Assembly (NCBI GenBank): GCA_029558715.1 | Contig: JAKQEA010000047.1 | Coordinates: forward strand, 1 to 64,000 | Length of the DNA stretch: 64,000 nt | Source: Bacteroidota bacterium | GTDB taxonomy: Bacteria; Bacteroidota; Bacteroidia; Chitinophagales; Chitinophagaceae | Reading direction: 5' to 3' | Part shown: positions 44,428 through 64,000 of the stretch, in pieces | Numbering within the stretch: the first letter of the stretch is position 1 | How the letters are laid out: each line of letters begins with the position of its first letter | The notes under the pieces: model-generated | Databases searched by the model: none | What the model saw: the letters and a program-made list of their open reading frames with translations, nothing else | Told to the model about the DNA's origin: nothing | Program-made: the position numbers and the translations under genes

Positions 44428-44534
44428 CTTGAAGATTTACTTTTGACATCCTTTTTTTGCTCTGGCCAATAAATGTCAGGCGGGGCAAACAAAGGATAAA
44501 TTACTTTTGGCAAATCTAAACTAAAATTGGTTTC

Positions 44535-45137: not shown

Positions 45138-45222
45138 TCCATGATATAAATCATTCGCAGGGTTCTCTTTCATCATGGCTTTTTGGAATTGTTGAAGGTA
45201 GCTTAGCCACCAACTAAAAAGG

Positions 45223-46764
45223 TTGTTGCCATTGGCTAAGGATAAGCAGATAGAACTGTTCAGTCAGCAAGCCCCGACTGAAAAGGAGATGTTTTGTAAA
45301 CTCCAGCAAAACTTTGCCCCTCAATACAAAGCTGTTTTTCATGATAAGATGGCTGCTAAAACAGTTGTCGTTATTCCTAGTTTGACACTCGATCCTGTCA
45401 TCCTTGCCAAAATTGACGGAATTGTACATTATGAAGAAAGGCTATTATGCCTGCTCTTGTTATTACGGATGCCCAAAACACATATAATATATGTGACGAG
45501 CACACCAATAGATCCCATTATTATCGACTACTATCTTCATTTGCTGCCAGGTATTACAGGCGATCATGCAAGGCAGCGCATACATTTCTTCAGTTGTTAT
45601 GATGCGTCGCCGGTTTCTTTAACTGAAAAAATATTGGCAAGGCCCCGGTTGATAAAACGAATGATGAATGCGATACCGGATGGCCACCTGGCTCACCTGG
45701 CTTGTTTTAATGTGACAGAACATGAAAGGAAGCTGGCTGTTACACTGGGATTGCCGGTATACGGTTGCGATCCCGACCTGCTTTTTTGGGGAACCAAATC
45801 AGGCAGCCGGGAAATCTTCAAAGAATGCGGTGTTGATACTCCGATCGGCTATGAGAACCTTCAAAACGAGGCACAGGTAATAAAAGCATTAGCCGATTTG
45901 TATGAGAACAACCCTTTGATAAGGAAAGCAGTAATAAAAATGAATGATGGCTTCAGCGGAGAAGGCAATGCGGTGTTTTCTTACCAGAAAATTACAGGTA
46001 CAGGAAATGTCGAATCTCAGATCATGGAATTATTGCCCGCAGAGATTGAAATTGTAGCTTCTGATCTCACCTATCAGCAATTCATGCATAAGTTTGCCAG
46101 TATGGGAGGTATTGTAGAAGCTTTTATTGATGCGCCACAGAAAGCATCGCCGTCTGTTCAGTGCCGTATCAATCCACTGGGAAAGATTGATATCATTTCC
46201 ACCCATGACCAATTGATGGGTGGCCCCGATGGACAGGTATTCCTTGGAGGAACTTTCCCTGCCAACAAGGAGTATAGTATTGAAGTAGGTACACTAGGTA
46301 AAAAGATATCTGAAGTGATGAAAAATAAAGGAGTGATGGGCAGATTTGGGGTCGATTTTTTATCAGTTAAAGAGAATGAGGAATGGAAGCACTATGCAAT
46401 AGAAATAAATCTCCGGAAAGGGGGTACCACACATCCTTATATCATGCTTCAGTTTCTGACAAACGGAGATTATAACCCTGATACAGGAAAATACATACTG
46501 GCTGATGGCAATGAAAAGTGTTACCTTTTTACAGACAACTTACAGGATGACAGATTCAAAGGCCTGGTTCCTTCCGACCTGATGGAGATTGCCATGCTAA
46601 ATAATCTGCATTATGATACTACCAAGGAGGAAGGAGTGATGTTTCACTTAATCGGGGCCTTATCTCAATTTGGTAAGATCGGGCTCGTATGTATTGCTTC
46701 AACTTTCGAACGGGCTAAATATTTTTATGACGAAACCGTAAGGGTCTTGGAAGGAGAATGCTGA
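45223..46764 (+). CDS. ATP-grasp peptide-ligase PGM1-related protein (TTG start)
   Basis: VVVIPSLTLDPVILAKIDGIVHYEERLLCLLLLLRMP, PIDPIIIDYYLHLLPGITGDHARQRIHFFSCYDASPVSLTEKIL, VIKMNDGFSGEGNAVF, INLRKGGTTHP. Confidence 0.8.
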   Translation: MLPLAKDKQIELFSQQAPTEKEMFCKLQQNFAPQYKAVFHDKMAAKTVVVIPSLTLDPVILAKIDGIVHYEERLLCLLLLLRMPKTHIIYVTSTPIDPIIIDYYLHLLPGITGDHARQRIHFFSCYDASPVSLTEKILARPRLIKRMMNAIPDGHLAHLACFNVTEHERKLAVTLGLPVYGCDPDLLFWGTKSGSREIFKECGVDTPIGYENLQNEAQVIKALADLYENNPLIRKAVIKMNDGFSGEGNAVFSYQKITGTGNVESQIMELLPAEIEIVASDLTYQQFMHKFASMGGIVEAFIDAPQKASPSVQCRINPLGKIDIISTHDQLMGGPDGQVFLGGTFPANKEYSIEVGTLGKKISEVMKNKGVMGRFGVDFLSVKENEEWKHYAIEINLRKGGTTHPYIMLQFLTNGDYNPDTGKYILADGNEKCYLFTDNLQDDRFKGLVPSDLMEIAMLNNLHYDTTKEEGVMFHLIGALSQFGKIGLVCIASTFERAKYFYDETVRVLEGEC

Positions 46765-47046: not shown

Positions 47047-49098
47047 ATGAGTACAGATGCGGGTATACAAATATTAAGAGATAAAATTGATAGCCTAAAC
47101 CAGCAGGCCTGGGATGCGAGAGTATATGACTCGCCAAAGGCATTTGAATTGAGCAGAGAGTCTGTAGAACTTGCAAGAAGCATACAGTATAATAAAGGAT
47201 TGGCGTACGGACTCTTATCGCTGGGATTTTGTTATGTACGTCTTTCAAAAAATAATGAAGGACTCTTACTGTTAGAAGAATCATTAGCGCTGTTTCAGTC
47301 ACTCAATGATTTAAAGGGACAATCTGTAGTGTATGAATACCTGGCCATTATTCGGCGCAACTGGGGTGATTTTGGCGCTTCCCTCGGGTTTCTTTTTAAA
47401 GCCCTTGAGCTGAGTGTGCAAACCCGTTTCAGGGAGAATGAATCAACCAACCATTACCAGGTTGGGGTTACTTACAAGCATCTTGGAAATTTTGAAAAAG
47501 CCCTTGATTCTTTGTATAAAAGTATGTCCATTTTAAAGGAGCTAAAAAACAGGTTCCTTGAGTCCTATCCCATTAATGTTATCGGGTCTATCTATTTTGA
47601 TAACGGAGATTATACTAAAGCATTGGAATATTACCAGGAAGCTTTGATAAGGCGGCAGGAGACCGGTGATAAATGGGGAATGGCCGGTAGCCTTGACAGC
47701 ATTGGTTTTACCTATCTCAAACTGCAGGATTATCACCAGGCAATTGATTATTGTACACGAAGCCTTGCAATAAGCCAAAGCACCGATGATAAAAGAAGCC
47801 AGGCCAATGCCCTGCTTCACCTGGCGGAAATTAATAAACAGAAAGGTGATACCGTGCAGGCTACAAAATTTTGCAATGAAAGCCTGTATATAAGAAGGGC
47901 AAGCGGGGATAAAAGAGGAGAGGTAGAGATTCTTTTATTCCTGGCTGAGCTTCACAAAACGGATGCTGAAAAAAAGCAAGATAAAGAGATAGTTGAATGG
48001 CTTTCATCAGCACTTATCATTGCAACAGAAATAAAGGCGCTTGATCAGTTGAGCAAAACCCGCTTCCAGTTATATGAATACTATAAAGGAGCCGGAAATC
48101 CCGATGAAGCGCTAATGCAACTCGAAATTCATATCGATCTCGAAAAAGAGTTGCATAAAAATTCCATAACTCAAAAAGTGCAGAACCTGGAAATATCCCA
48201 CAGAGCGGAGGAAGCCAGAAAGGAAGCTGAAGCCATCGGATTGCGGAACATGGAACTGACGCAGTTGAATGAGGAAATTGAAGCGCAGAAGCAAAAACTG
48301 GAAGAGGCGCTCACTGAACTGAAGTCGGCCCAGGCTCAGTTAATACAATCTGAGAAAATGGCTTCATTAGGCGAACTCACGGCAGGCATTGCCCATGAAA
48401 TTCAGAATCCGTTAAACTTCGTCAATAACTTTTCAGAAGTAAGCAACGAATTGCTGGATGAAATGAAACAGGAAATAGATAAAGGAGAGATGGATGAAGT
48501 AAAAGCAATTGCAGATGATGTAAAGCAAAACCTGGAAAAAATATTGCACCACGGTAAAAGGGCCGATGGTATTGTAAAAGGTATGTTACAACATTCCAGA
48601 ACAAGTACTGGTCAAAAAGAACTGACAGATATCAATGTATTGGCTGATGAATATTTACGGTTGGCGTATCATGGACTAAGAGCCAAAGACAAGTCATTCA
48701 ATGCAACGATGAAAACTGATTTTGATGAAAGTATCCCTAAGATTAATGTCATTCCACAGGATATAGGAAGAGTGATTCTGAATTTAATTACCAACGCATT
48801 TTACGCTGTGTCAGAAAGAAAGAAGTTGAATATAGAAGGATATGAGCCGGTTGTTACGGTAAGTACAAGAAAATTTAATGACAGGATTACAGTGCATGTA
48901 AAAGATAATGGAACGGGCATTCCTCAAAAAGTAATGGAAAAAATATTTCAACCTTTTTTTACTACCAAACCCACAGGGCAGGGAACTGGTTTAGGTTTAT
49001 CATTGAGTTATGATATTGTAAAAGCACATGGTGGGGAGTTGAAAGTTGAGACGATTGAGGGAGAAGGGAGTGAGTTTATTATTCAATTACCCTTGTAA
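47047..49098 (+). CDS. Cytoplasmic TPR-repeat sensor histidine kinase
   Basis: Multiple TPR units (e.g. VIGSIYFDNGDYTKALEYYQEALIRRQETGDKWG), coiled coil, H-box MASLGELTAGIAHEIQNPLNFVNNF, HATPase NLITNAFYAV...DNGTGIP...FFTTKPTGQGTGLGLSLSYDIVKAHGG. No signal peptide. Confidence 0.92.
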   Translation: MSTDAGIQILRDKIDSLNQQAWDARVYDSPKAFELSRESVELARSIQYNKGLAYGLLSLGFCYVRLSKNNEGLLLLEESLALFQSLNDLKGQSVVYEYLAIIRRNWGDFGASLGFLFKALELSVQTRFRENESTNHYQVGVTYKHLGNFEKALDSLYKSMSILKELKNRFLESYPINVIGSIYFDNGDYTKALEYYQEALIRRQETGDKWGMAGSLDSIGFTYLKLQDYHQAIDYCTRSLAISQSTDDKRSQANALLHLAEINKQKGDTVQATKFCNESLYIRRASGDKRGEVEILLFLAELHKTDAEKKQDKEIVEWLSSALIIATEIKALDQLSKTRFQLYEYYKGAGNPDEALMQLEIHIDLEKELHKNSITQKVQNLEISHRAEEARKEAEAIGLRNMELTQLNEEIEAQKQKLEEALTELKSAQAQLIQSEKMASLGELTAGIAHEIQNPLNFVNNFSEVSNELLDEMKQEIDKGEMDEVKAIADDVKQNLEKILHHGKRADGIVKGMLQHSRTSTGQKELTDINVLADEYLRLAYHGLRAKDKSFNATMKTDFDESIPKINVIPQDIGRVILNLITNAFYAVSERKKLNIEGYEPVVTVSTRKFNDRITVHVKDNGTGIPQKVMEKIFQPFFTTKPTGQGTGLGLSLSYDIVKAHGGELKVETIEGEGSEFIIQLPL

Positions 49099-49136
49099 TA
49101 ATAGTTTAAATTCAATTGCTGTTAATTAGTTATTTT

Positions 49137-50294
49137 ATGAAAGCAAAGACAATAAATGGAAAATCAACGGAAGAAATAAGAATTGCTTTAGAGCAAAGCA
49201 TGGCTGATGAATTTAGACCAACGCTGGCTATTGTGTTTTTATCAATTAAGCAAGACAGAAAAGCCGTTTGTGAAGTTTTGAATAATAAGGGTATTGATAT
49301 TTTCGGTGCTACTTCTGCAGGAGAATTCACTAATGGACATCAGAGCCAGGGTGAAATAGTAATGCTGTTACTCGATATAAGTAAGGATAACTATTGTATT
49401 CTGCTGGAAGACATTGGTGACAGAAGTTTAAATGAAGTCGCCCATAACATTGCACAGGCTGCAACGCAAAAATTCAACAGATCCGGTTTAATTCTTAGCG
49501 GAACAATTTTATCAGGTACAGGTAAACTATTGGATGGAAATACTGTGGTGAAAATAATGGAAGAAGTTTTTGGCCCCGGCGTAAGCATGTTTGGGGGCAT
49601 GGCAGGTGATGATATAACATTTACCGGCACCCATGTTTTTACGAATAAGCAATCTTCCGATTATGGCCTGCTGGTGCTGGTACTCGATGAAGAGAAAATA
49701 AGTATGCATGGTATGGCTATTTCCGGCTGGAAACCAATGGGGGTAATGCGTACCGTAACCCAAAGCGATGATAACCTGATTTATACTATTGATGATCTTC
49801 CGGCATTGAAAATTTACCTCAGGTTTTTAGGAAAAGACACTTCTACTGCTGCTGATCAGATAAATTTCTTCGAGTCGATCTCTGTCCACTATCCTTTCCT
49901 GATAGAACGCAAGGGAAGGGATCCTAAAATTTGTGGCCCTATCGGGTATGACAAAGAAAAAAATGCACTGATATGCGAATCTTATGTTCCGCAAGGGGCC
50001 CGCTTCCGGTTTTCCACTCCCCCTGATTTTGAAATTATCGATACCGTAATAACAAAAGCAATTGAGTTAAAAACTGAATCGCAAACAGATGCTGATGCAT
50101 TGCTGATATTTTCCTGTGCCGGCAGGTTAAGTGCATTGGGGCCTATGGCTCAACAGGAAAATGAAGGGCTTGCTGATGTATGGAAAGTTCCGATGGCAGG
50201 TTTTTATACTTATGGCGAATTTGGTAAAGGGCTTGACGGCCAACATGAGTTTCATTCCAGTACCAACAGCTGGGTGGCATTAAAAGAAAAATAA
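49137..50294 (+). CDS. FIST-domain protein 1
   Basis: FIST N/C architecture: ALAIVFLS..-type strand, GIDIFGATSAGEFTNG, MFGGMAGDDITFTGTHVF, LLIFSCAGRLSALGPMAQQENEGLADVWKVPMAGFYTYGEFG. Start at MKAKTINGKSTEEI (49137). Confidence 0.88.
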   Translation: MKAKTINGKSTEEIRIALEQSMADEFRPTLAIVFLSIKQDRKAVCEVLNNKGIDIFGATSAGEFTNGHQSQGEIVMLLLDISKDNYCILLEDIGDRSLNEVAHNIAQAATQKFNRSGLILSGTILSGTGKLLDGNTVVKIMEEVFGPGVSMFGGMAGDDITFTGTHVFTNKQSSDYGLLVLVLDEEKISMHGMAISGWKPMGVMRTVTQSDDNLIYTIDDLPALKIYLRFLGKDTSTAADQINFFESISVHYPFLIERKGRDPKICGPIGYDKEKNALICESYVPQGARFRFSTPPDFEIIDTVITKAIELKTESQTDADALLIFSCAGRLSALGPMAQQENEGLADVWKVPMAGFYTYGEFGKGLDGQHEFHSSTNSWVALKEK

Positions 50295-50306: not shown

Positions 50307-51443
50307 ATGATAGCAAAATCAATAAAAGGAAAAACAGCAGAAGAAATCAAAGTCGCATTAGAAACATTGACAACCGGTGGTTATCTGCCAACATTGGCGC
50401 TGGTCTTTCTTTCTGTAATGAATGAAATAGAGACCATTTGTTCTTTACTGGACAAAGAAGGAATTGCCATTTTTGGTGCTACTACGTTTGCAGAGTTTAC
50501 AGAACAGGACGCTGAAAATACAGGTATTGCTGTGTTGCTTTTGGATATCAACCCCGCTTATTTCAGAATTGTTTTAAAAGATAATGGGGAAGGGTCCGGT
50601 TATGAAATTGGTTGCCACATTGGAGAAACTGGTATAAATACATTTACTAATCCTGCATTTATTATTTCTACCGCCAATTACACAATTCCCGGCGCATCGA
50701 TCATACAAGGAATGATTGAAAAAGCCGGGGCAGATGTCACGATTGTAGGTGGTAAAGCCGGGGAAATGATAAACATGGAAGGAAAAGTTTTTACCAATAC
50801 TCAATCAAGTGATAATGCTATCATTTCATTGATACTCGATCAGGATAAAATAACTTTAAAAGGAATGGCAGCCTCAGGTTGGAAACCTGCAGGAACTGAA
50901 AAGAAAATTACACAATGTACGGGACAATGGATCTATACCATCGATGATCAGCCGGCATTTGAGGTGGTTAAAAAATTCCTTGGAAAGGATATTGTAGAAG
51001 ATAAAAATAAGGAAGGCATTGTAAAACTAAGCATCATCTATCCTATACAATTATACCGGGAAGGAGGAAGCCCGTATATGCTTCCCATCTTATTTGCCAA
51101 TACAGAAGATAATTCTGTTATGCTGGCAGAAGCAGCACCGGAAGGTTCCTTATTCCGGTTTTCAATGCCACCGGATTTTGATGTAATTGATATGGTGATT
51201 AGAAGTTCGTTGGAAGTAAAAGAAAAACAAATGCCCGAAGCAGATGCTCTCGTCATTTTTTCCTGCATAGGCCGGTTAGGATCGTTGGGACCCATGGCTT
51301 CAAAAGAAGTAGAAGGATTGGCTTATACCTGGAAAAGCCCGATGATTGGATATTATTCTCTTGGTGAATTTGGACGGGTAGCCAATGGTAAACCTGAGTT
51401 TCATGGTACTACTGTAAGCTGGGTAGCATTAAAAGAAAAATAA
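50307..51443 (+). CDS. FIST-domain protein 2
   Basis: Paralog of 49137-50294: MIAKSIKGKTAEEIKVALE, GIAIFGATTFAEFTE, IVGGKAGE, ALVIFSCIGRLGSLGPMASKEVEGL, terminal SWVALKEK. Confidence 0.87.
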   Translation: MIAKSIKGKTAEEIKVALETLTTGGYLPTLALVFLSVMNEIETICSLLDKEGIAIFGATTFAEFTEQDAENTGIAVLLLDINPAYFRIVLKDNGEGSGYEIGCHIGETGINTFTNPAFIISTANYTIPGASIIQGMIEKAGADVTIVGGKAGEMINMEGKVFTNTQSSDNAIISLILDQDKITLKGMAASGWKPAGTEKKITQCTGQWIYTIDDQPAFEVVKKFLGKDIVEDKNKEGIVKLSIIYPIQLYREGGSPYMLPILFANTEDNSVMLAEAAPEGSLFRFSMPPDFDVIDMVIRSSLEVKEKQMPEADALVIFSCIGRLGSLGPMASKEVEGLAYTWKSPMIGYYSLGEFGRVANGKPEFHGTTVSWVALKEK

Positions 51444-51445
51444 TT

Positions 51446-52651
51446 ATGAACGCAAAATCAATCAAAGGAAAATCTATAAAAGAAATCAGTTCTGCATTAA
51501 CGGGAAATATGGCCGATGGATTCAAGCCAACTCTAGCCATTGTATTTATATCTGTTAAACAGGACAGGGAAGCTATTTCCAGATTATTGGACGAAAAAGG
51601 CATCCAGATATTTGGTGCTACCACTGCTGGTGAATTTATTGATGGCGAAATTGAAGAAGGCAGCATTGTGATGTTATTGCTCGACATGAACACAGCTTAT
51701 TTTAAAATAGAATTTTTGGAAACAAGGCAGGAGACCGCCTTCGAAGACGCAACCAAACTGGGCATTACCGGAAAGGAAACTTTTACCAACCCGGCGTTTA
51801 TTATAGCAAATAGCGGTGTGTCTTTAGATGGTGAACCATTTGTTGAAGGCATCATACAGGGTTATGGAAAATCTCCTTCGTCCGCAGACAGGGAAGTAAC
51901 CATATTTGGAGGTAAGGCAGGCGATGATCTGGCATTGGAATCAACATTTGTTTTTACCAACGGTAAAAGTAATGACTGTGCATTGGTAGCACTCATTATT
52001 GATGAAGATAAGGTAGATGTCAGGGGTATTGCTACTTGTGGCTGGCAGGCTATTGGTACCACAAAAACAGTTACAAAAAGCGAAGGTAATACTGTGTATA
52101 CCATCGACGATAAACCAGCATTGGATATGCTCATGAATTACCTTGGTGTTGAGATAAAGCAGGAAGGCAGTAAGGACATCGTGACATTTCTAAGCTCCTG
52201 GTATTATCCCTTGCAGGTGGAACGTGAAAATGTAGATCCTGTAATACGCACAGCTATGTTTGCCAATCGGGAAGACCGTTCACTTATTTGTTCCGGAAAA
52301 GTGCCTCAGGGGTCAAAGATCAAGTTTTCGATGCCACCGGATTTTGACTCCATTGATACAGTCGTTGCAGAATGTAAGGTCATTAAGGACGAAGCACAGC
52401 AGGAAGCTGATGCCCTGATCATGTTCTCCTGTGTGAGCAGGTATTTATCTTTTGGAGTTGTAATGAAAGAGGAGATAGAGCAGGTGCAAAAAATCTGGGA
52501 TGCACCCATGGCAGGCTTTTTTTCCTATGGCGAATATGGAAAATCCCTGCCTGTCCGGCAGGCAGGCCTGTCTCCGGGTAACGCAGAGAAAACCGCTAAA
52601 TATGATTATCATAATAATACATGCTGCCTGGTGGCACTAAAAGAAAAATAA
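51446..52651 (+). CDS. FIST-domain protein 3 with a 14-aa insertion near the C-terminus
   Basis: Paralog: MNAKSIKGKSIKEISSAL, GIQIFGATTAGEFIDG, FGGKAGDDLALEST, terminal CLVALKEK. Confidence 0.88.
   Translation: MNAKSIKGKSIKEISSALTGNMADGFKPTLAIVFISVKQDREAISRLLDEKGIQIFGATTAGEFIDGEIEEGSIVMLLLDMNTAYFKIEFLETRQETAFEDATKLGITGKETFTNPAFIIANSGVSLDGEPFVEGIIQGYGKSPSSADREVTIFGGKAGDDLALESTFVFTNGKSNDCALVALIIDEDKVDVRGIATCGWQAIGTTKTVTKSEGNTVYTIDDKPALDMLMNYLGVEIKQEGSKDIVTFLSSWYYPLQVERENVDPVIRTAMFANREDRSLICSGKVPQGSKIKFSMPPDFDSIDTVVAECKVIKDEAQQEADALIMFSCVSRYLSFGVVMKEEIEQVQKIWDAPMAGFFSYGEYGKSLPVRQAGLSPGNAEKTAKYDYHNNTCCLVALKEK
52546..52566. repeat. REP-like palindrome inside FIST gene 3
   Basis: CCTGCCTG-TCCGG-CAGGCAGG perfect 8-bp stem, encoding LPVRQAG within an insertion absent from the paralogs. 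Confidence 0.6.
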
Positions 52652-52655
52652 AATC

Positions 52656-53795
52656 ATGAAAGCAAAATCAATCAGAGGAAAATCGACTGAAGAAATTAAA
52701 ACTGCTTTGGCAGAAAGTGTGGCAGACGGTTTTAGACCAACGTTAGCCATCTGCTTTATTTCAAAAAGTCTGGACAGGAAAGCAATTAGTGATTTACTAG
52801 ATGAAGAAGGCATAACCATATTTGGCTGTACCACCAATGGCGAGTTTATTGATGAAGTGCCAGAGAAAAATTCTGCTGCTATTTTGTTGCTTGATATGAA
52901 GAAAGATCATTTTCAAATCTACTTTGAAGAATATCCTGATAAAGATTATCGGGATGTGGCAAAAGGAATTGCTCAAAAAGCAAAGGCAAAATTTTCAGTA
53001 CCGGCTTTTTTAGTTGGCATTAGTAATGCTGCCGCAGATGGCGAAGAAATATTGCGGGGTATCGAAGATGTAGCAGGGCCAGAAGTAAATGCATTTGGCG
53101 GCGCAGCCGGTGACGATTATGCATTCTCGGAAACATTTGTTTTTACCAATGGAAAAGATAGCGGCCACGCTATGGTATGTATTGCAGTGGATGAATCAGA
53201 AGTAGAAATAAAAGGTATTGCCACTTGTGGATGGAAACCAGTGGGTACAGAAAAAGTAGTTACCAAAAGTGAAGGTAACCATGTGTATACAGTAGAAGAT
53301 ATGCCTGTGCTTGACTTAACTGCAAAATATGGTGGCATTGAAAATGTTACTCCTGAAAACAGTAATTTACTGGTAGAAATTGCTGCCAACTTTCCTTTAC
53401 AACTACAGCGAGAAAAAGGCGACCCGGTTATGCGGCCAGGCCTTGTGGTTGATTGGAACGATCGATCTTATTACACCAGCGGATCAGTGCCACAAGGATC
53501 AAAAGTCAAATTCTCTTTACCACCTGATTTTGATGTAATGGAAAAAGTAGTCAAGGGGGTGCAGAATTTAAAGGCAACTGAAATGCCGCAAGCGGATGCC
53601 TTGGTAGTTTTCAGTTGCGCCGGACGAATACTTTCACTGGGGCCATTGATGAGTAAAGAGTTAGAAGGGGTAAAGAATGTATGGAATGTGCCTATGGCGG
53701 GTATGTTCTCCAATGCAGAACTTGGAAGAGCTACAGGTGGTAACCTTGAAATGCATAACCTCACTACCTGTTGCATAGCATTAAAAGAAAAATAA
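52656..53795 (+). CDS. FIST-domain protein 4
   Basis: Paralog: MKAKSIRGKSTEEIKTALAESVADGFRPTLAICFIS, GITIFGCTTNGEFID, FGGAAGDDYAFSETFVF, terminal CIALKEK. Confidence 0.88.
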   Translation: MKAKSIRGKSTEEIKTALAESVADGFRPTLAICFISKSLDRKAISDLLDEEGITIFGCTTNGEFIDEVPEKNSAAILLLDMKKDHFQIYFEEYPDKDYRDVAKGIAQKAKAKFSVPAFLVGISNAAADGEEILRGIEDVAGPEVNAFGGAAGDDYAFSETFVFTNGKDSGHAMVCIAVDESEVEIKGIATCGWKPVGTEKVVTKSEGNHVYTVEDMPVLDLTAKYGGIENVTPENSNLLVEIAANFPLQLQREKGDPVMRPGLVVDWNDRSYYTSGSVPQGSKVKFSLPPDFDVMEKVVKGVQNLKATEMPQADALVVFSCAGRILSLGPLMSKELEGVKNVWNVPMAGMFSNAELGRATGGNLEMHNLTTCCIALKEK

Positions 53796-53796
53796 G

Positions 53797-54837
53797 ATGA
53801 ACCCGCATTTGCAAAATGTATTGAATATAGTTCAGCAGGACAAAAACCTGTCTGAAGATCAAATAGCTGCTATTACAAAATCATTAAAGGACGCCGATAA
53901 GGAATTAGAGATAACGGCATTCAAGCTTGACCGGACAGAAAAAGTAAAACGTACCACAGCTATTCTTTTAGAAGAGACGATTGAAGAACTGGAGCAGAAA
54001 AGAAAAGCCATTGAAGAAACAAATACTGCCCTGCAAAAATCATTGGAAGAGTTAAAAGCTGCACAGCAGCAGCTTATTCAATCAGAAAAAATGGCGAGCC
54101 TTGGTGAATTGACCGCCGGTATTGCTCATGAAATTCAAAATCCGCTAAACTTCGTCAACAATTTTTCTGATGTAAGTACAGAACTGGTAGATGAAATGAA
54201 TGATGAAATTGATAAAGGAAACCTGGAAGATGCCAAACAGATTGCGCAGGACTTAAAACAAAACCTTGAAAAAATTAATCATCATGGCAAACGGGCAGGT
54301 GATATTGTAAAAGGAATGCTTCAGCATTCAAGAACCAGCAGCGGACAAAAAGAACTGACCGATATCAATGCGTTGGCGGATGAATACCTGCGCCTCGCTT
54401 ATCATGGGCTAAGGGCTAAAGACAAAACATTTAACGCTGCCATGAAAACAGATTACGATGAAAGTATCGGGCTTATAAAAATTATTCCGCAGGATATAGG
54501 CCGTGTTGTTCTGAATCTTATCACCAATGCTTTTTATGCGGTTACAGAAAGAAAAAAGCTTGCTGTTGAAGGCTATGAACCGATAGTTACTGTAAGCACA
54601 AAGAAATATAGTGACAGGGTTGAAGTGCAGGTAAAAGATAATGGCACCGGCATTCCGCAAAAAGCACTGGATAAAATATTTCAACCTTTTTTTACAACCA
54701 AACCAACCGGTCAGGGTACAGGTCTGGGATTGTCATTGAGTTATGATATTGTAAAAGCACATGGCGGGGAAATAAAAGTAACTACAGCAGAGAATGAAGG
54801 GACTGAATTTATTATCAGTATACCTGTTAATCAATAA
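53797..54837 (+). CDS. Soluble histidine kinase with only a coiled-coil N-terminus
   Basis: 346 aa; N-terminal ~100 aa coiled coil; H-box ASLGELTAGIAHEIQNPLNFVNNFSDVS and HATPase core nearly matching the flanking kinases. No TM or signal peptide. Confidence 0.9.
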   Translation: MNPHLQNVLNIVQQDKNLSEDQIAAITKSLKDADKELEITAFKLDRTEKVKRTTAILLEETIEELEQKRKAIEETNTALQKSLEELKAAQQQLIQSEKMASLGELTAGIAHEIQNPLNFVNNFSDVSTELVDEMNDEIDKGNLEDAKQIAQDLKQNLEKINHHGKRAGDIVKGMLQHSRTSSGQKELTDINALADEYLRLAYHGLRAKDKTFNAAMKTDYDESIGLIKIIPQDIGRVVLNLITNAFYAVTERKKLAVEGYEPIVTVSTKKYSDRVEVQVKDNGTGIPQKALDKIFQPFFTTKPTGQGTGLGLSLSYDIVKAHGGEIKVTTAENEGTEFIISIPVNQ

Positions 54838-54840
54838 AAG

Positions 54841-57800
54841 ATGAAACTGACCAAAAAACTGGAAGCGGAGATACTAAAGATTTACTACACCTATTGGGAA
54901 AGTTATTCCAAAGGGGATGTCAAAGCATTTGCCGGTACGTTGGATAAAACCTTTGAAATGATCGGCACTTCCGAATCTGAAATTTGCCATACCAGGGAAG
55001 AGGGGATAAAATTCCTGGAGGCCCAGATAAAAGAACTGGTCGGTAAGGTGGAAATGAGGAACCGGAAAATCAGCGTGGTGCCCGTCAATGAACTAATGCT
55101 GGTAAATGAAAGATGTGACATCTATACCCTGGATGGCCGGAAATGGATATTTTATTCAAAAATCAGGATATCAACTTTTCTCCGTAAAACAACTTCCGGA
55201 TGGAAAGTTTTTCAGCAACACGGTTCCCTTCCCGATATGCGGGTGCAGGAAGGAGAGACGCTGGCTATTAAGAAAATCAGCAAGGAGAACCTTCAGCTCC
55301 GCGATGCCATCAAGCGCCGCACCATTGAACTGGAAGAAAAGAACAGGGAACTGGAAATAGAAACAGCGCTGGAAAAAGTCAGAACTGTTGCGATGGGTAT
55401 GAAGAGACGGGAAGATATGCTCCAGATCTGTAAAACCATTTCACAACAACTGGCAAAGCTTGGCGTAAAGGAAATCCGAAATGTGCAGACCGCCATTTTT
55501 AATGTGCCACAGGGTACTTACATGAATTATGAATACTATGCTAAGCACAATAAAACATTTGTTACCGAAACTGAATATACTAATCACAAGATAGCGAGGG
55601 CCTTTGCAGCAAAAATGCTGAAAGGAAGAGGTGAGGTTTCCATTACGTATATAAAAGGAAAGCAAAAGGTAAAGGAGTGGCTCAACTATCAGAAAGGCAC
55701 CAATGTTTTCATTGATACATATCTGAACACGGCAACATCTCTTACCTATTATTGGTATTCACTGGGGCCGGTGGCGTTGGGTATCTCTACCTATACGCCG
55801 TTGACAAAGGATGAGCAACTGTTGTTCAGCCGTTTTCTGAAAGTGTTTGAACTGGCTTACCGCCGCTATTTGGATATTGAAAAAGCTGAAGCACAGGCAA
55901 GAGAAGCGCAGATAGAAGCAGCGTTGGAAAGAATAAGAGCAGCCTCTCTGGCCATGAGAGATTCCTCAGCATTAAGCTCAATCATTTTCAGGCTGTATGC
56001 TGAACTTACAAAACTGGATGCCAAACTTGACCGGTGTTTTATCATGATTGTAAATCAGGAAAACAAGGGCATCACCTGGTGGATGGCCGGCCAGGAAGGT
56101 TTGTTGGCAGAGAATGGTTTTTTCGTTCAGATGAATCAGCATGCCTCTCACCTGATGTACCTCGATTACTGTAAGCAGCGGAAGAAAAAATGGACCTACC
56201 TGTTTGAAGGAAAGGAAAAAAGAGACTGGGACCGCTTTGGATTCAGTAAAACAGAACTGGCGAGGCTACCTGAGCCTGTCAAAGCGTTTATGGCTGCCGC
56301 AAAGAAGGTATTCCTCTCCGGTTCTTCTGATCAATTTGGTTCATTGGTAACAGGCAGTTTTGAACCCTTGCCGCAAGAGCAGCAGGAAATCATCAGTCGG
56401 TTTACCATCGTTTTCAACCAGGCATACATCCGTTTTCTCGACTTGCAAAAAGCCGAGGCACAGGCAAGGGAAGCTCAGATAGAAGCGGCGTTGGAACGAG
56501 TGCGAAGCAGAAGTATGGCCATGCACAAAAGCGATGAGTTGCTTGAAGCGGGTGAAATTCTTTTTGTGGAAATGCAAAAGCTCGGTATTGAAAGCTTAAC
56601 TGCCGGCTATGTTTTAATGGATAAGGATGAAAAAAAAGGGTTCAATTATATGCCTGATCCATCCACTAAAAAAATGTTTCAGCTACCCGTAATTATTCCG
56701 CATAATGAGACAGTGCATATGCAACAGGTGGTTGAAAACTGGAAGAAGGGCAAGCCTTTTTTCATCGTTGAAATGGATGAAGAAGAAACTATTAAGCACC
56801 AAACATTTATTGCGGAACGCAGTACGAACTTTACACTGACTGCAGCACAGCTTATTGCCATTTCACCGGCGAAATTGGTGCTGCATAATTTCTATTTTAA
56901 AGAAGGGTATATTTTGATAGTAGGCGGTACCAAATTATCTGCTGAGCAAACAGATATTATGTTGCGCTTTACGAAAGTATTCCAGCAAGCCTATACCCGT
57001 TTTCTCGATCTGCAAAAAGCCGAAGCACAGGCAAGGGAAGCAGAAATTCAACTGGCTTTGGAAAGAGTTAGGGCAAGAAGCCTCGCCATGCACCATACTT
57101 CAGAATTGCAGGAGGTGGTGAACATTGCTGCACAGCAATTACATGGTATCGGTATAGATATTAATGGGGGTGTATTTATTGCAATCAATACCGAAATAGA
57201 TAAAGAACTATCCATCTGGGCATCAGGAGGAATGGCTGACTATATACAAAAAGTTATTGTTCCCGAATTGAACAAACCGATTTTTACAACGTTGCGGGAT
57301 GCTATCAAAAGGGGGAATAGTTTTCTGATCGAAACGTTCAGTGACAAAGAAAAGCGGGAAATGTTTACCCATCTTTTCAAATACGAACCATGGAAAAGCC
57401 TGCCGAAGGAAAGAAAGGAAGAATTGCTGTCCCGGAAAGGGGGATTTGCCCGTTCAGTAATTATTTCACACTATACTACCATCTCCATTACCAATCATCA
57501 TGGCAAAGCATTTAGTGAAGAAGAAAACGAAATACTGAAAAGGTTCGGAAAAGTATTTGAGCAATCCTATATCCGTTTTCTTGATCTGCAAAAAGCCGAA
57601 GCACAGGCAAAAGAAGCACAGATAGAAGCGGCATTGGAAAAAATCCGTTCCCGTTCATTAGCGATGCATAAAAGCGATGAACTGAAAGAAGTGGTGGCAG
57701 TTTTATATCAGAAATTACAGGAGTTGGATTTTGATATGGACAAAGGCGCTGCTATAATGATTACTTATACGCCGGATTCAAAAGATATTACCCAATGGAT

Positions 57801-60800
57801 AACGGATGCCACACAAACCTATGCAGTTCCTTTCTCTATCCCGTTTACAGAATATACTATTCCACTAGACCAGGATACTGCGAGAGAAAAGGGTTTGCCA
57901 ATTTTTTCAAGGCTATATACCCGGAAAGAAAAAAATGAATATTTCCGCTATCTGTTTAAGCATACACAATACAGCCAGATACCGGAACCGGTACAAAAAA
58001 TGATACTTGACAGTAAACATTTTGGTATTTCAATAGCCCTTGAAAAAAATTCTGCAATTGCTATTCCATCCACTGTCGGAAAATTAGTTACCAGTGAAGA
58101 AATAAATATCCTGAAAAGATTTTCTAATGTATTTGAACAGTCTTATACCCGTTTTCTTGACCTGCAAAAAGCCGAAGCACAGGCACAGGAGGCACAGATT
58201 CAATTAGCATTAGAAAGAGTTCGTGCAAGAACAATGGCCATGCAAAGAAGTGAAGAACTGCCAGAAACTTCATTAGTGCTTTATCAACAGTTCGAGCAAT
58301 TAGGTGAACCGGCTGAGCAGCTAACCATAGGCGTCGTTCACGAAGAAAATAATGTCATCGAGATCTCAGCAACGCTGCATGGGGGTGTATTGAATAAAAT
58401 TTACTGGCACAGTATAGATGAGCCCTTTATGATGAATAAAGTTTACCGGGCCTGGAAAACTCAGCAAAAAACACTCATTGTAGAATTGAAAGGTGATCAA
58501 TTGAATGCTTACAATAAGTATCGTAATGAGTTGACCAAATCAGAAATGTTTCCAACCGATTATGATGATGAACACCGGCGCATAGTATATGCAGCTTTTT
58601 TTTCTAAGGGGATGTTGGCGTTCGCAGTCAACGAACCTCGTCCGCCCCAATCTCTTGAGTTGTTAGAAAGGTTTGCTTCGGTATTCGATCTTACTTATAC
58701 CCGTTTCCTCGATCTGCAAAAAGCAGAAGCACAAACAAGAGAAGCTGAAATAGAATTAGGTTTGGAGAGAGTGAGGGCAAGAGCCATGGCCATGCAAAAA
58801 TCGGATGAACTGTCTGATCTGGTTGATACGGTTTTTAAAGAATTAACCAAACTTGATTTTGCATTAAATTGGTGCATCATTAATATCATTGATGAGCCAT
58901 CTCTCACCAATATGGTTTGGGCTGCCAACCCCGAAACAAATAAGCCGCCGGAATCCTACCTGATGAAGTTTGAAGATTATCCTTTTCATCATTCCATGCT
59001 GAAAGGATACCGGGATCGAAAACCAAAACATGTATACGTTATAGAAGGAAAAGAAAAAACAACTTACGACAATTATCTCTTTAATGAAACAGAATGGAGA
59101 AGAGTTCCCAAAGCTGCGCAGGATGCTTCAAGAGCGATGAAAAGATATGTAGCCACTTTCACTTTTAGCAACTTTGGCGGGTTACAAACAGTAGGAGAAG
59201 AATATCTTTCTGAACAGAACCTTGATATACTCAGCCGCTTCGGAAAAGTATTCGATCTCACTTATACCCGTTTCAATGATTTACTAAAAGCCGAAGCACA
59301 GGCAAGAGAAGCACAAATTCAATTGGCATTGGAGCGGGCAAGGTCACAAAGTATGACCATGCAACATTCCTCTGAGCTGGACAATACATTGCGGGTATTT
59401 CATGAACAGGTTTTACAACTAGGCATTCCATCAGCATTTTCATTTTTGTGGCTGCCGGATGAAGAAAAAGAACGGCATATTTTCTGGGCAGCATGGGAAG
59501 AACATAAATCGTTTGGCAGTAAGGCCATCAATTATCCGCTGGACATGAATGAACCGGCTACAGCACAATGTTTGATTGACTGGAAAAGCAAACCCGTAGT
59601 AGCTTATCATGTTCCGCCGGAAGGAGTGGAAAGTTATTTTGCCGCATGGAGCGAATTGATTGACGGCGTTGAACATCTGCAATCAGCAAACTTCAGGGAT
59701 GGATTGTATTATGTAGAAGCCTTTAACAAGTACGGCTGCTTTGGCGTTTTGGTCAAAAACGATTTGGATGAAGTTGAAAAGAAAATATTGTATCGCTTCG
59801 CCGTAGAGTTTGAGCAAACCTACACCCGCTTTCTTGACCTGCAAAAAGCAGAAGCACAGGCAAAAGAAGCGCAGATAGAAGCAGCATTGGAAAGAGTGAG
59901 AAGCCGTTCGATGGGTATGCAGAAAAGTGAAGAGCTTAAAGAAGTAATTAAATTAGTTTACCAGCAACTCATTCATTTAAATATTAATCTTGACCATGCA
60001 GGTTTTGTTGTTGACTATACACCAAAAGGAGATTGGACTTTCTGGATTGCCGATGAACAGGATATTCCTGCTAAAATAACGCATCCCTGGTTTGAATCTG
60101 TTTGGGCTAATCAATTCAACGAAGCAAAAGAAAAAGATGCAGACCTCTTTGTCACCAATTTAAATTTTGAACAAAAGAATAAATTTTACAATGAGCTTTT
60201 GTCTTATGTTCCCGGGTTACCCCAGGCATCAAAAGATTTTTATTTAACCTGTCCCGGTCTTGCCGCATCAACTGTATTGTTTGATGATGTTGCGCTCTAT
60301 ATTGAAAACTTTTCAGGTAAGCCTTATACTGATGAAGATAATAAAACGCTGATGCGCTTTGGAAAAGTGTTTCAGCAGACCTATACCCGTTTTCTCGACC
60401 TGCAAAAAGCAGAAGCACAGGCAAGAGAAGCACAGGTAGAAACGGCGTTGGAAAAAGTACGGAGCCGCTCTTTGGCCATGCATAAAAGTGATGAACTTCT
60501 TGAAGTAGTCACAGTAATATTTGAACAGTTGAAAAATCTGGGACTACAGCTCTGGAGCTGCGGCATTGTCCGCTTTCACTCGAAACAATCCTCCGAAGCT
60601 GAGGTATGGATGACAAGACCAGATGGGAAAATGATGGGGCAATCGTTTGTCATACCACTTGACAAAGTGCCTGTATATAAGAAACTGTATGAAGCCTGGA
60701 AGAACATGGAAGAATTTCATATTGAGTCACTACAGGATATGGATATCATCAAACATCACAACAGCATTGCTTTACTCAATGTTATTCCGGTAGACAAAAT

Positions 60801-63516
60801 GAAACAGGCAGCAGGCAGGGAATTACCCCGACAAATGTTTTTTCACTGTATCAATTTTTCAGATGGATTTCTTGGCGTTATTACCACTGAAGCTGTCGAA
60901 GATGAAACCTTGCTGCTGCGCTTCGGAAATACATTTAAACAATCTTATACCCGTTTCCTTGATCTGCAAAAAGCCGAAGCACAGGCAAGAGAAGCACAGA
61001 TACAGCTTGCATTGGAAAGAGTAAGGGCAAGAACAATGGCCATGCACCAGAGTAGTGAATTGAATGAAGCTGCGGAACTGTTATACAAGGAACTCACAAA
61101 ACTTGGCATTGAAAAATTAACCTGCGGGTTCACATTACTGGACGATACGACGGGCGCCGGCACCTGTTATATGGCTAATCCGGAGGGTAGTTTTCTATGG
61201 GAACCATTTCGCTTAAATCATACCGGCAGCCCGGGTTTTCTTTCCATGTATGAAAGCTGGCAGAAACGAGAAGCATATCATACGTTTGAATTATCAGGTC
61301 AGTCAAATGTAGATCATAACAGGTACCTGGCAGAAAAAGCAGAAAATTTTCCGATACCAGTTGAACAATTGCTAGCCATACTTCCTCCAGTAACATATTC
61401 CAACACAATTAATTTCCAGTATGGCTATTTGCTGGTGGTAAGTCTTTCACCTTTTACTAAAGATCAGGTTGAAATTCTTAAACGCTTCGCAAAAGTTTTT
61501 GAACAGACTTATACAAGATTTCTTGATCTGCAAAAAGCCGAAGCGCAGGCAAGAGAAGCAAAAATTGAAGCGGCTTTGGAAAAAGTACGCAGCCGCACCA
61601 TGGGTATGCAACATAGCAATGAATTACCTGAAGCCGCCAATTTATTATTCCTCGAAGTGCAGGCATTAGGTATACCTGCCTGGAGTTGCGGGTACAATAT
61701 CCTGGCAACGGATAAAAAATCAAGTACCTGTATCATGAGCAGTGAAGGCCGTCTTCAGTCAGCTTTTCATCTTCCCTTTATAAATTCAGGCGAACCTTCT
61801 TTTGCCGAATGGCTGGAAGCAATTGAAAAAGGAGATTTTTTTGTACAGGAACTCAGTGGCAAAAAAATTGAGGATCATTATAATTATATGAAGACCCTGC
61901 CACAGGTAGGGCCGGTTATAAAGGAACTGGAAGATGCAGGACTCTCCCTCCCCACGTACCAGATCAACCATCTTTCATTTTTTAACGGGGGGTTTCTCTT
62001 ATTTATCACTTACGAACCGGTGCCACATGCTTATGATATATTCAAAAGGTTTACCACTGTTTTTGAACAAACCTATACCCGCTTCCTCGATCTGCAAAAA
62101 GCAGAAGCACAGGCAAGAGAAGCACAGATTGAAACGGCATTGGAAAAAGTAAGAAGCCGCACACTGGCCATGCAGAAAAGCGATGAGCTGGCAGAAACAG
62201 CCACCGTTTTATTTCAACAATTAATTGCATTGGGGATTGAACCCAACCGGCTCTACATTATCCTCATCAAAGAAGACAGTGCTGATATGGAAGCATGGGT
62301 AACAGATGAGGATGGCAGTAAAGTGAGCATTGGCTTTACAAGCAATTACAGGAAAAACGCTTCCTTATTAAAAATGTATAAAGGCTGGAAGGAAAAAAGA
62401 AACAGCCTGGTAATAGATATGAAGGGAGAAGAACTGAAGGAATATTTTCATTACCTGCATAATGAACTGCATGTACCTTTTAAAGGCGGACTGGAACAAA
62501 AAAGAAGGGTGCAGCATATTGCTTATTTCAGTCATGGTTTAATTGGCATGGCTTCGCCGGATGAACAGCCCGTTGAAACGTTACAATTACTGGAGCGATT
62601 TGCGGCTGTGTTCAATCTTACCTTCACCCGTTTCAACGACCTGCAGGTTGCTGAAGCACATGCCCTGCAGGCCGAGCAGGACCTGGTTGCCATAAAAGAA
62701 GCCAAGCAAAAAGCAGAAGAGGCCCTGGCCGAATTGCAGGTTACCCAAAAGCAACTGATACAATCCGAGAAAATGGCCAGTCTTGGGGAACTCACCGCTG
62801 GTATCGCCCATGAAATTCAGAACCCGTTAAACTTCGTCAACAACTTTAGCGAAGTAAGTAAGGAATTACTGGATGAAATGAAGGAAGCGATAGAAAAAGG
62901 TGATACGGAAGATGCCAGGGAAATCATGAATGATGTGATCCAGAATTTAGAAAAGATCAATCATCATGGTAAACGGGCAGATGGTATTGTAAAAGGTATG
63001 CTGCAACACAGTCGCAGCAGCAGCGGGCAAAAAGAGCCAACTGATATTAATGCATTGGCAGATGAATATTTGCGATTGGCTTATCATGGGTTAAGGGCAA
63101 AGGATAAGTCTTTCAATGCCACCATGATAACTGATTATGATGCAGCAATTGGCAATATCAATGTTATTCCGCAGGATATGGGAAGAGTGATTTTGAATTT
63201 AATTACCAACGCTTTCTATGTAGTGGCAGAAAAGAAAAAAGAAAATAGTGAAGGATACGAACCAACTGTTTCTGTGAGTACAAAAAATGAGGGCAACAAT
63301 ATTCTGATTAGTGTAAGAGACAATGGCAATGGTATCCCACAAAAAATACTCGATAAAATCTTTCAACCCTTCTTTACTACCAAGCCCACAGGACAAGGAA
63401 CAGGTCTGGGTTTATCGCTGAGTTATGATATTGTGAAAGCTCATGGAGGAGAACTGAAAGTGGAAACAAAGGAAGCAGAAGGAAGCAAATTCATAATTGT
63501 ATTACCATTTAGTTAA
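54841..63516 (+). CDS. Giant multi-sensor histidine kinase: NTF2/SnoaL-like domain, 13 tandem ~188-aa GAF-like modules with signalling-helix linkers, C-terminal HK core
   Basis: 2891 aa single ORF. Recurrent RFLDLQKAEAQAREAQIEAALERVRSRSMAMHKSDEL linker; C-terminal SEKMASLGELTAGIAHEIQNPL and FFTTKPTGQGTGLGLSLSYDIVKAHGG. Confidence 0.9.
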   Translation: MKLTKKLEAEILKIYYTYWESYSKGDVKAFAGTLDKTFEMIGTSESEICHTREEGIKFLEAQIKELVGKVEMRNRKISVVPVNELMLVNERCDIYTLDGRKWIFYSKIRISTFLRKTTSGWKVFQQHGSLPDMRVQEGETLAIKKISKENLQLRDAIKRRTIELEEKNRELEIETALEKVRTVAMGMKRREDMLQICKTISQQLAKLGVKEIRNVQTAIFNVPQGTYMNYEYYAKHNKTFVTETEYTNHKIARAFAAKMLKGRGEVSITYIKGKQKVKEWLNYQKGTNVFIDTYLNTATSLTYYWYSLGPVALGISTYTPLTKDEQLLFSRFLKVFELAYRRYLDIEKAEAQAREAQIEAALERIRAASLAMRDSSALSSIIFRLYAELTKLDAKLDRCFIMIVNQENKGITWWMAGQEGLLAENGFFVQMNQHASHLMYLDYCKQRKKKWTYLFEGKEKRDWDRFGFSKTELARLPEPVKAFMAAAKKVFLSGSSDQFGSLVTGSFEPLPQEQQEIISRFTIVFNQAYIRFLDLQKAEAQAREAQIEAALERVRSRSMAMHKSDELLEAGEILFVEMQKLGIESLTAGYVLMDKDEKKGFNYMPDPSTKKMFQLPVIIPHNETVHMQQVVENWKKGKPFFIVEMDEEETIKHQTFIAERSTNFTLTAAQLIAISPAKLVLHNFYFKEGYILIVGGTKLSAEQTDIMLRFTKVFQQAYTRFLDLQKAEAQAREAEIQLALERVRARSLAMHHTSELQEVVNIAAQQLHGIGIDINGGVFIAINTEIDKELSIWASGGMADYIQKVIVPELNKPIFTTLRDAIKRGNSFLIETFSDKEKREMFTHLFKYEPWKSLPKERKEELLSRKGGFARSVIISHYTTISITNHHGKAFSEEENEILKRFGKVFEQSYIRFLDLQKAEAQAKEAQIEAALEKIRSRSLAMHKSDELKEVVAVLYQKLQELDFDMDKGAAIMITYTPDSKDITQWITDATQTYAVPFSIPFTEYTIPLDQDTAREKGLPIFSRLYTRKEKNEYFRYLFKHTQYSQIPEPVQKMILDSKHFGISIALEKNSAIAIPSTVGKLVTSEEINILKRFSNVFEQSYTRFLDLQKAEAQAQEAQIQLALERVRARTMAMQRSEELPETSLVLYQQFEQLGEPAEQLTIGVVHEENNVIEISATLHGGVLNKIYWHSIDEPFMMNKVYRAWKTQQKTLIVELKGDQLNAYNKYRNELTKSEMFPTDYDDEHRRIVYAAFFSKGMLAFAVNEPRPPQSLELLERFASVFDLTYTRFLDLQKAEAQTREAEIELGLERVRARAMAMQKSDELSDLVDTVFKELTKLDFALNWCIINIIDEPSLTNMVWAANPETNKPPESYLMKFEDYPFHHSMLKGYRDRKPKHVYVIEGKEKTTYDNYLFNETEWRRVPKAAQDASRAMKRYVATFTFSNFGGLQTVGEEYLSEQNLDILSRFGKVFDLTYTRFNDLLKAEAQAREAQIQLALERARSQSMTMQHSSELDNTLRVFHEQVLQLGIPSAFSFLWLPDEEKERHIFWAAWEEHKSFGSKAINYPLDMNEPATAQCLIDWKSKPVVAYHVPPEGVESYFAAWSELIDGVEHLQSANFRDGLYYVEAFNKYGCFGVLVKNDLDEVEKKILYRFAVEFEQTYTRFLDLQKAEAQAKEAQIEAALERVRSRSMGMQKSEELKEVIKLVYQQLIHLNINLDHAGFVVDYTPKGDWTFWIADEQDIPAKITHPWFESVWANQFNEAKEKDADLFVTNLNFEQKNKFYNELLSYVPGLPQASKDFYLTCPGLAASTVLFDDVALYIENFSGKPYTDEDNKTLMRFGKVFQQTYTRFLDLQKAEAQAREAQVETALEKVRSRSLAMHKSDELLEVVTVIFEQLKNLGLQLWSCGIVRFHSKQSSEAEVWMTRPDGKMMGQSFVIPLDKVPVYKKLYEAWKNMEEFHIESLQDMDIIKHHNSIALLNVIPVDKMKQAAGRELPRQMFFHCINFSDGFLGVITTEAVEDETLLLRFGNTFKQSYTRFLDLQKAEAQAREAQIQLALERVRARTMAMHQSSELNEAAELLYKELTKLGIEKLTCGFTLLDDTTGAGTCYMANPEGSFLWEPFRLNHTGSPGFLSMYESWQKREAYHTFELSGQSNVDHNRYLAEKAENFPIPVEQLLAILPPVTYSNTINFQYGYLLVVSLSPFTKDQVEILKRFAKVFEQTYTRFLDLQKAEAQAREAKIEAALEKVRSRTMGMQHSNELPEAANLLFLEVQALGIPAWSCGYNILATDKKSSTCIMSSEGRLQSAFHLPFINSGEPSFAEWLEAIEKGDFFVQELSGKKIEDHYNYMKTLPQVGPVIKELEDAGLSLPTYQINHLSFFNGGFLLFITYEPVPHAYDIFKRFTTVFEQTYTRFLDLQKAEAQAREAQIETALEKVRSRTLAMQKSDELAETATVLFQQLIALGIEPNRLYIILIKEDSADMEAWVTDEDGSKVSIGFTSNYRKNASLLKMYKGWKEKRNSLVIDMKGEELKEYFHYLHNELHVPFKGGLEQKRRVQHIAYFSHGLIGMASPDEQPVETLQLLERFAAVFNLTFTRFNDLQVAEAHALQAEQDLVAIKEAKQKAEEALAELQVTQKQLIQSEKMASLGELTAGIAHEIQNPLNFVNNFSEVSKELLDEMKEAIEKGDTEDAREIMNDVIQNLEKINHHGKRADGIVKGMLQHSRSSSGQKEPTDINALADEYLRLAYHGLRAKDKSFNATMITDYDAAIGNINVIPQDMGRVILNLITNAFYVVAEKKKENSEGYEPTVSVSTKNEGNNILISVRDNGNGIPQKILDKIFQPFFTTKPTGQGTGLGLSLSYDIVKAHGGELKVETKEAEGSKFIIVLPFS
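55300..62640 (+). repeat. 13 tandem coding repeats of ~184-192 codons within the giant kinase gene
   Basis: (R/K)FLDLQKAE linker codons begin at 55864, 56431, 56998, 57574, 58150, 58702, 59269, 59827, 60388, 60952, 61516, 62080 and 62629. Module 1 lies before 55864, after a variant helix near 55330. Confidence 0.9.
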
Positions 63517-63527
63517 TATATAAAAAG

Positions 63528-64000
63528 ATGAAGATTTTAATTGTAATAATTCTATTTTTTTATTTCCCGGTGCAACTCTGTGCTCAAGTTCAAGTTGACA
63601 GCATGTCTCCGGGCTATAATCCATTTTTAGCAGATAGCCTGCGCTCAAAGATTGACCGGGCTGACACTGATTCTGCAAAAGCCTGGAACATGATTTTGCT
63701 TTACTGGGCAATTGAAGGGATTCAGTCAGATAGTGCACTAGTTATTGCGAAACAAGCCTATGAATTCTCAAAAAGTAAGCAATTGAAATTTATGGAGGTC
63801 TATGCATTGATGGCTATAGGATATAATCAAAAAAACACGGGAGATTATGCTGAATCATTAAAAACATACTTACAGGCATTTGAAATATTAGGGTATTCTT
63901 CTTTTCATGAAAGTAACAGCCTGCCTGATTCTGATGGTTCTGTTTTTGACCGGGATATTTTGCATGAATATGCAGAGACACAGAGACATATGGGTTTTTT
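63528..64000 (+). CDS. Exported TPR protein (likely sensor N-terminus), truncated by the window edge
   Basis: ATG 63528 opens MKILIVIILFFYFPVQLCAQVQVDSMSPGYNPFLADSLRSKIDRADTDSAKAWNMILLYWAIEGIQSDSALVIAKQAYEFSKSK..., with no stop before 64000 (hence absent from the ORF track). Confidence 0.75.
   Translation, partial: MKILIVIILFFYFPVQLCAQVQVDSMSPGYNPFLADSLRSKIDRADTDSAKAWNMILLYWAIEGIQSDSALVIAKQAYEFSKSKQLKFMEVYALMAIGYNQKNTGDYAESLKTYLQAFEILGYSSFHESNSLPDSDGSVFDRDILHEYAETQRHMGF

Follow-up and report, generated by a model that had tools for sequence, protein, structure and literature searches.

Serial GAF sensors placed on a helical spine that runs into the DHp domain are known from bacteriophytochrome and cyanobacteriochrome kinases, which have a PAS-GAF-PHY-HK layout or tandem CBCR GAF domains. 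Helix-joined serial GAF domains also control cyclic nucleotide in CyaB1 and CyaB2, the cyanobacterial tandem-GAF adenylate cyclases, and in PDE2A. Merged helices and heptad-dependent linkers are features of poly-HAMP and tandem-PAS kinases and of the YF1/YHF linkers, and in a LOV kinase with engineered linkers the activity depends on linker length with a period of seven residues (PMC6798134). The S-helix connects sensor and output domains through parallel helices, has a heptad-related length, and carries an ERT signature in its central heptad (PMC1592074). Multi-sensor kinases are already known, and what is notable in the system described here is the shuffling of the sensor modules. In the open-access literature searched, neither a phylum-wide family of 4–22 serial GAF sensors in scrambled, non-redundant sets nor arrays like these (tandem-GAF kinases in Bacteroidetes, domain shuffling, FIST clusters) were found.

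The window, the whole stretch of DNA that was analysed, had a length of 64,000 nucleotides and was taken from a Chitinophagaceae genome (contig JAKQEA010000047.1) assembled in 235 contigs and 4.02 Mb. It contained a giant array histidine kinase gene (54841–63516, forward strand, as for its parts and for the kinase and FIST genes beside it), which started with ATG and encoded 2891 residues without an internal stop, the single uninterrupted reading frame that had been described in the first-pass annotation. The protein was composed of an N-terminal NTF2-like SnoaL_3 domain (residues 13–132; 54877–55236; Pfam E 8.1e-11), a lead-in helix to the first module read from the sequence (residues 137–176; 55249–55368), 13 modules, a signalling helix entering the kinase (62686–62781), placed by the spacing survey and a structural model, and a C-terminal kinase core. 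The core contained intact HisKA (residues 2648–2728; 62782–63024) and HATPase_c (residues 2778–2890; 63172–63510) domains by Pfam. The H box with the phospho-acceptor motif HEIQNPLN, the N box (NLITNAF), the G1 box (DNGNGIP), the F box (FQPFFTTKP), and the G2 box (GQGTGLGLSL) were all present. By its domains the protein is a sensor histidine kinase, for which autophosphorylation and phosphotransfer are predicted. No transmembrane segment was seen in the kinase, with a top 19-residue Kyte–Doolittle mean of 1.26, and the NTF2/SnoaL-like head, the C-terminal kinase core, and the cytoplasmic location proposed earlier were in agreement with these results.

LE[RK][VIA]R anchors were found 13 times, at residues 177, 362, 551, 740, 932, 1124, 1308, 1497, 1683, 1870, 2058, 2246, and 2434. 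The anchor-to-anchor period was 184–192 residues, which matched the 13 modules at 183–192 residues of the earlier reading. The modules were alignable end to end, the exit helix and the linker being almost invariant, and residues Arg158, Phe159, Phe163, and Arg169 (module numbering) and several linker residues were invariant in all 13, as expected from the exit helix previously written as L.RF.KVFEQ.YTRF. Whole modules were 22–43% identical in pairs, and the trimmed module bodies were at most 32% identical within the protein by BLAST, so that the strong divergence claimed for the bodies was borne out. No exact 40-mer was repeated inside the gene; therefore, ordinary short reads suffice for counting the modules, and long reads are not required. 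Arrays matched by the module profile of the window were also present in isolate genomes, on contigs of up to 4 Mb.

The fold of module 9 was predicted by AlphaFold2 with 100 aligned relatives, and the model (pLDDT 94.7, pTM 0.88) had its elements in the order typical of a GAF domain, a fold defined by a six-stranded sheet with helices at the N- and C-terminal ends, and showed a full sheet. When the model was compared with the PDB by Foldseek, the top matches were GAF domains, with an E-value of about 1e-5, a probability of 1.0, and a TM-score of about 0.5–0.6. The best matches were 3k2n, GAF-A/B of PDE2A in second place, the GAF domain of PtsP, and the YKG9 GAF domain, and phytochrome chains containing a GAF domain were among them. 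Modules 12 and 13, modelled together with the kinase, had the same element order as module 9. On these models the modules have the GAF fold that had been proposed from helix pattern and length, and the single-module prediction, in which a structural coiled-coil spacer was tested, gave a GAF domain instead. The Pfam GAF profiles did not reach the curated cut-off in any of the 13 modules, one of which matched GAF_2 with an E-value of 0.0024; essentially no family was recognised in the modules by Pfam and NCBIfam, and the module sequence profile gave only chance matches against the PDB (E > 1). The lack of a Pfam match weakens the case for the Pfam GAF families, not for the GAF fold. Weak, fragment-only Pfam matches to DCC1-like and RNA_pol_N inside the modules were dismissed. 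No PAS or PHY domain was found in the window modules by Pfam, and no invariant cysteine of the bilin-binding kind was present in the 13-module alignment. The array also differed from the phytochromes in its NTF2-like head, in the 4–22 modules found in the family, and in the shuffling of modules between proteins.

The connections between the domains were of nearly fixed length. The stretch from YxR[FY] to LE[RK] was 18 residues in 793 of 794 cases over all arrays, after correction of a pattern artefact; the 30 cases of an apparent 29-residue linker were the same 18-residue linker, with the pattern matching 11 residues earlier. The inter-module linker reads LxKAEAQAREAQIEAALERVRSRS. It resembled the S-helix as a helical connector with a heptad-related length, and the ERT signature of the S-helix was absent from the linker consensus. 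The spacer between the last module and the LGELTAGIAHEI motif (H-box segment) measured 35, 42, or 49 residues in all 66 cases. These are not 66 independent events because the spacer class tracked the type of the last module, the 35-residue class occurring only with type T4. The classes differed by exactly one heptad per step, and the window kinase belonged to the 49-residue class. In the C-terminal model (modules 12 and 13 and the kinase), a 48-residue helix joined modules 12 and 13, and a 108-residue helix ran from module 13 into DHp. The best overall fold matches of this model were full-length bacteriophytochromes; the model was a monomer with a pTM of 0.57, so that the relative placement of its domains is uncertain. 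The 18-residue linker and the heptad-step spacer fit signalling along a continuous coiled coil, and the continuous helices of the model, together with the constant linkers, uphold the stacked signalling helices of the first-pass annotation. The poly-HAMP and tandem-PAS kinases differ in having other folds, and single-module exchange was not found for them in the literature searched.

A family scan with patterns taken from module 11, covering a single genome for each species, yielded 76 loci from the best 80 of 224 confirmed candidates, almost all from Bacteroidota. There were 61 complete kinase arrays of four modules or more (from the best 80 of 224 candidates and related genomes), with a median of 10 modules and a maximum of 22. 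The homologue search with module counts proposed earlier was thereby carried out. An NTF2-like N-terminal homologue (phmmer) headed 32 of the 61 complete arrays, and at least 165 residues preceded the first module in 45 of them. The module was detected in 27 of 296 sampled genomes of the phylum. Arrays ending in a SpoIIE phosphatase were found in Ignavibacteria and Calditrichota (L084:8915–12421 and L080:2–2860). Giant array kinases with different module sets lay back to back at five loci (L010, L053, L026, L061, and L123).

Ten of the 13 window modules had a counterpart at 53–89% identity in giant kinases of other Bacteroidota. Module 1 (55369–55923) was of the first-slot type T9, which occupied slot 1 in 14 of the 14 arrays carrying it. 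The body of module 2 (55924–56490; type T28) was 89% identical to slot 2 of L079, and bodies 83–86% identical to that of module 3 (56491–57057; T7) were located at slots 4, 7, 9, and 13 elsewhere. Module 4 (57058–57633; T36) was matched by slot 2 of L114 at 78% and slot 10 of L070 at 74%, and the best relative of module 6 (58210–58761; T62) among the matches listed was 56% identical. Relatives of module 7 (58762–59328; T10) at 70–74% occupied slots 2, 3, 8, and 11, and those of module 8 (59329–59886; T12) at 70–78% occupied slots 4, 7, 10, and 13. Module 9 (59887–60447), delimited by its anchors, belonged to type T1 with 44 members. Relatives of module 12 (61576–62139) at 65–67% were found at slots 3, 8, and 10, and module 13 (62140–62685), of the last-slot type T6, was 77% identical to slot 10 of 10 in L073. 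For modules 5 (57634–58209), 10 (60448–61011), and 11 (61012–61575), no counterpart of that closeness was found among the matches listed, the best being 44, 34, and 43% identical, respectively.

Over all arrays (636 modules), 86% of the modules had a counterpart of at least 50% identity in another locus, and 59% had one of at least 70%. Each module type had its own set of invariant residues. The third codon positions of matched modules were 41–74% identical where the corresponding proteins were 69–89% identical, and this far greater divergence of the third positions indicates old types that are kept by purifying selection. The earlier suggestion that the modules have different ligands or partners, which may well apply here, gains weight from the fact that every body represents a conserved type subject to such selection.

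The first and last window modules kept their positions in other arrays, and the internal ones were scattered. Internal modules of the window occurred 96 times at 50% identity or more in 56 arrays, with the same slot number in 8, and their order pairs elsewhere were concordant in 30 cases and discordant in 28. The type of module 13 was found mainly in the last slot. In all arrays the order agreement was 62.5%, compared with 50 ± 2% after shuffling; cluster T0, in which 50% single-linkage clustering merged several types, was excluded from this order test. The order and repeat tests were repeated at identity cut-offs of 55–70%, and the concordance was 62% at 55% and 85% at 70%, which means that order decays with divergence and that the shuffling is gradual. 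The same type was present twice in one protein in 4 cases where 27 were expected (0–14 against 8–39 at the other cut-offs).

Eight examples of exchanged modules were compared together with their surroundings. The body, lead, and tail were 73–89% identical, whereas the bodies of both flanking modules were only 16–29% identical in seven of the eight examples, and in the eighth one neighbour was 50% identical. Exchange also crossed orders: module 3 was 86% identical in L020 (Cognataquiflexum) and 83% identical in L017 (Algoriphagus), compared with 66% for ArgG. The ArgG of the window genome was closest, at 88–89%, to those of L069, L079, and L035; in L069 the kinase core was 90% identical, yet only 3 of 13 modules were common at 50% or more, all of them at 60–67%. 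Judged from these alignments, modules are swapped one at a time, cleanly and between constant linkers, also across orders. Linker codon sharing was 0.61 in the window gene and 0.48 in all arrays, compared with 0.39 expected in both, and was 0.42 between proteins. The residual sharing fits recombination in the linkers, with a constraint on the DNA as the alternative. The constant linkers would permit in-frame swaps of whole modules between arrays, by which lineages would change their sensor set.

The kinase gene was embedded in a cluster of related signalling genes, including several kinases with cores 72–80% identical to its own. Upstream lay a TPR histidine kinase (47047–49098) with a core 77% identical, four proteins in a row, namely FIST sensor protein 1 (49116–50294; Pfam FIST and FIST_C), FIST-like proteins 2 (50307–51443) and 3 (51446–52651), assigned by eye from their likeness to the proteins at 49116 and 52656, and FIST sensor protein 4 (52656–53795; Pfam), and a short coiled-coil histidine kinase (53797–54837) with a core 72% identical. 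The two kinases were assigned by core comparison and domain scan, and by domain scan the start of a further TPR histidine kinase (63528–64000) was found downstream, extending past the window. Seven kinases of the genome (window contig C226, 47047–67368; contig C140) had a near-identical core at 71–80%, with one partial at 62%, and this likeness suggests, at the level of sequence, convergence on one regulator. FIST genes were located near arrays in 30 of 90 loci, within the fetched flank.

In relatives, the window-type cluster went on, in one operon-like arrangement, with a response regulator made of a single domain and with the RR-cyclase, in which a class III cyclase is joined to a response regulator. 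The RR-cyclase was present in 10 of the 27 module-positive genomes compared with 21 of 296 overall in the phylum sample (Fisher 1.3e-6), these ten being all the module-positive genomes listed up to same-class level. The distance between RR-cyclase and array was 4–12 kb in 7 of the ten, which came from several genera. Among close relatives, array and RR-cyclase overlapped in 6 of 7 (p 1.5e-5). In the seventh, G021, the close RR-cyclase was absent and the array was joined directly to a cyclase (L119). Direct fusions of an array of 6–8 GAF modules to a class III cyclase were found at L119:6053–11122, L120:5572–9693, and L033:7040–12316; modules of the L119 fusion were up to 83% identical to kinase-array modules, and those of L033 were more distant. 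Because arrays also end in cyclase or SpoIIE, the array is a portable input stage. No close RR-cyclase was found at E 1e-80 in the other 17 genomes with the module, which belong to other classes, so that other partners must exist. The window contig ended at 67368, and the RR-cyclase of the window genome was located on a separate contig, C141.

The cyclase carries a lysine and a threonine at the purine site, with aspartate in place of the threonine in the fusions, and these residues presumably point to the adenylate type, with ATP as substrate. A cyclic nucleotide, which would be produced through the RR-cyclase, is the best-supported output of the window kinase. CyaB1, CyaB2, and PDE2A have two GAF domains where the present arrays have many, and here the cyclase would mostly be reached through a kinase and a response regulator. 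A gene of the PycTM family (PF18967), the effector of the Pycsar system (PycC/PycTM), directly followed the RR-cyclase in six Flavobacteriaceae array loci (L009, L012, L013, L018, L032, and L058), and phage defence is a possible function in these lineages. The array-linked cyclases would differ from Pycsar in their adenylate-type appearance, and the gene after the RR-cyclase in the window genome encoded an HD-YitT membrane protein instead of PycTM. Pycsar was set aside for the window genome, PycTM in the genus being mostly proteins of 420–500 residues on other contigs. PADLOC matches to PycC were likewise set aside as evidence of defence, as the models also match ordinary class III cyclases.

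The reading considered probable is that of a soluble sensor kinase with many inputs, in which the signal would pass from a GAF spine through the kinase to the RR-cyclase and a cyclic nucleotide. The kinase would presumably be dimeric, with the NTF2-like head on top of a 13-GAF rod, whose domains are connected along a continuous, phase-locked helical spine with the DHp helix at its end. For each GAF body a separate cytoplasmic ligand or partner is most likely, and binding would alter the twist or packing of the spine. The summed inputs would set the balance between kinase and phosphatase, and the phosphoryl group would most likely be passed to the single receiver and to the receiver-class III adenylate cyclase, with a cyclic nucleotide, probably cAMP, as the output. 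A wider proposal is rather improbable: a phylum-wide pool of GAF modules with conserved specificity would be exchanged singly by linker recombination, giving every strain a particular repertoire of cytoplasmic sensors on a single output spine, and in some lineages the array would feed a cyclic-nucleotide/PycTM effector, perhaps in defence or danger sensing in the manner of a recombining innate receptor.

The last step of the preferred route is where the most serious alternative arises, namely that the true output is a conventional transcriptional or single-domain regulator and that the RR-cyclase is a mere frequent neighbour. The single-domain receiver that adjoins the RR-cyclase and the module-positive genomes of other classes lacking that cyclase would fit such an output, but array-cyclase fusions exist, and G021 has a fusion and no RR-cyclase; about one chance in a few is left to this alternative, which makes it doubtful. 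A different role of the modules themselves, in which they form a hub with a particular protein bound to each GAF body, possibly a FIST protein or a neighbouring kinase, appears unlikely. Some GAF domains work through protein contacts, and FIST proteins and several kinases with near-identical cores are encoded next door to the array; however, lone modules move between organisms with no matching partner gene noticed alongside, and the FIST neighbours at only a third of the loci, within the fetched flank, also speak against docking.

Slightly less likely again is that the modules are mainly structural and do little sensing, the array being a long rod to hold the NTF2 head away from the kinase, or a scaffold for other proteins. 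Some GAF-like domains, such as those of NarX/NarQ, are regarded as simple signal transmitters (PMC8199190) and offer a precedent. The divergent bodies unrecognised by Pfam would suit a rod, as would array lengths of anything between 4 and 22 modules without apparent loss. A spacer would not need bodies 70–89% identical across families despite diverged synonymous sites, and the type-specific invariant residues, the rarity of repeated types, and the GAF fold with its full sheet argue for sensing as well. That the array was built by tandem duplication, with orthology behind the similarity between species, is very improbable. Duplication is the usual route by which tandem arrays grow, and close relatives have a partial order in common. 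Against it, a paralogue of at least 50% identity inside the same protein was found for 3.9% of the 636 modules, fewer than the 10.2% expected in one random other array, and the window internal modules stand in random order elsewhere. The swapped modules with unrelated neighbours, the few modules common to L069 despite its closely similar core, and the match of module 3 in another order also oppose vertical growth.

The natural recombinants, which number in the dozens, carry one and the same module at varying distances from the kinase, and on kinase, cyclase, or phosphatase outputs. With them it becomes testable how many inputs a single coiled-coil spine is able to integrate, and swappable sensor domains in a fixed linker register amount to a parts kit for biosensors.

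Other genes of the window were assigned partly by eye. The genes at 43777–46764, upstream of the kinase and FIST cluster, comprised a uracil phosphoribosyltransferase and AnmK, both assigned by eye, and an ATP-grasp-like gene, and this set recurred in the neighbourhood at L035 and partly at L119. A carbamoyltransferase (32910–33881), of the N-acetyl/succinylornithine type by eye, was located within an arginine gene cluster.
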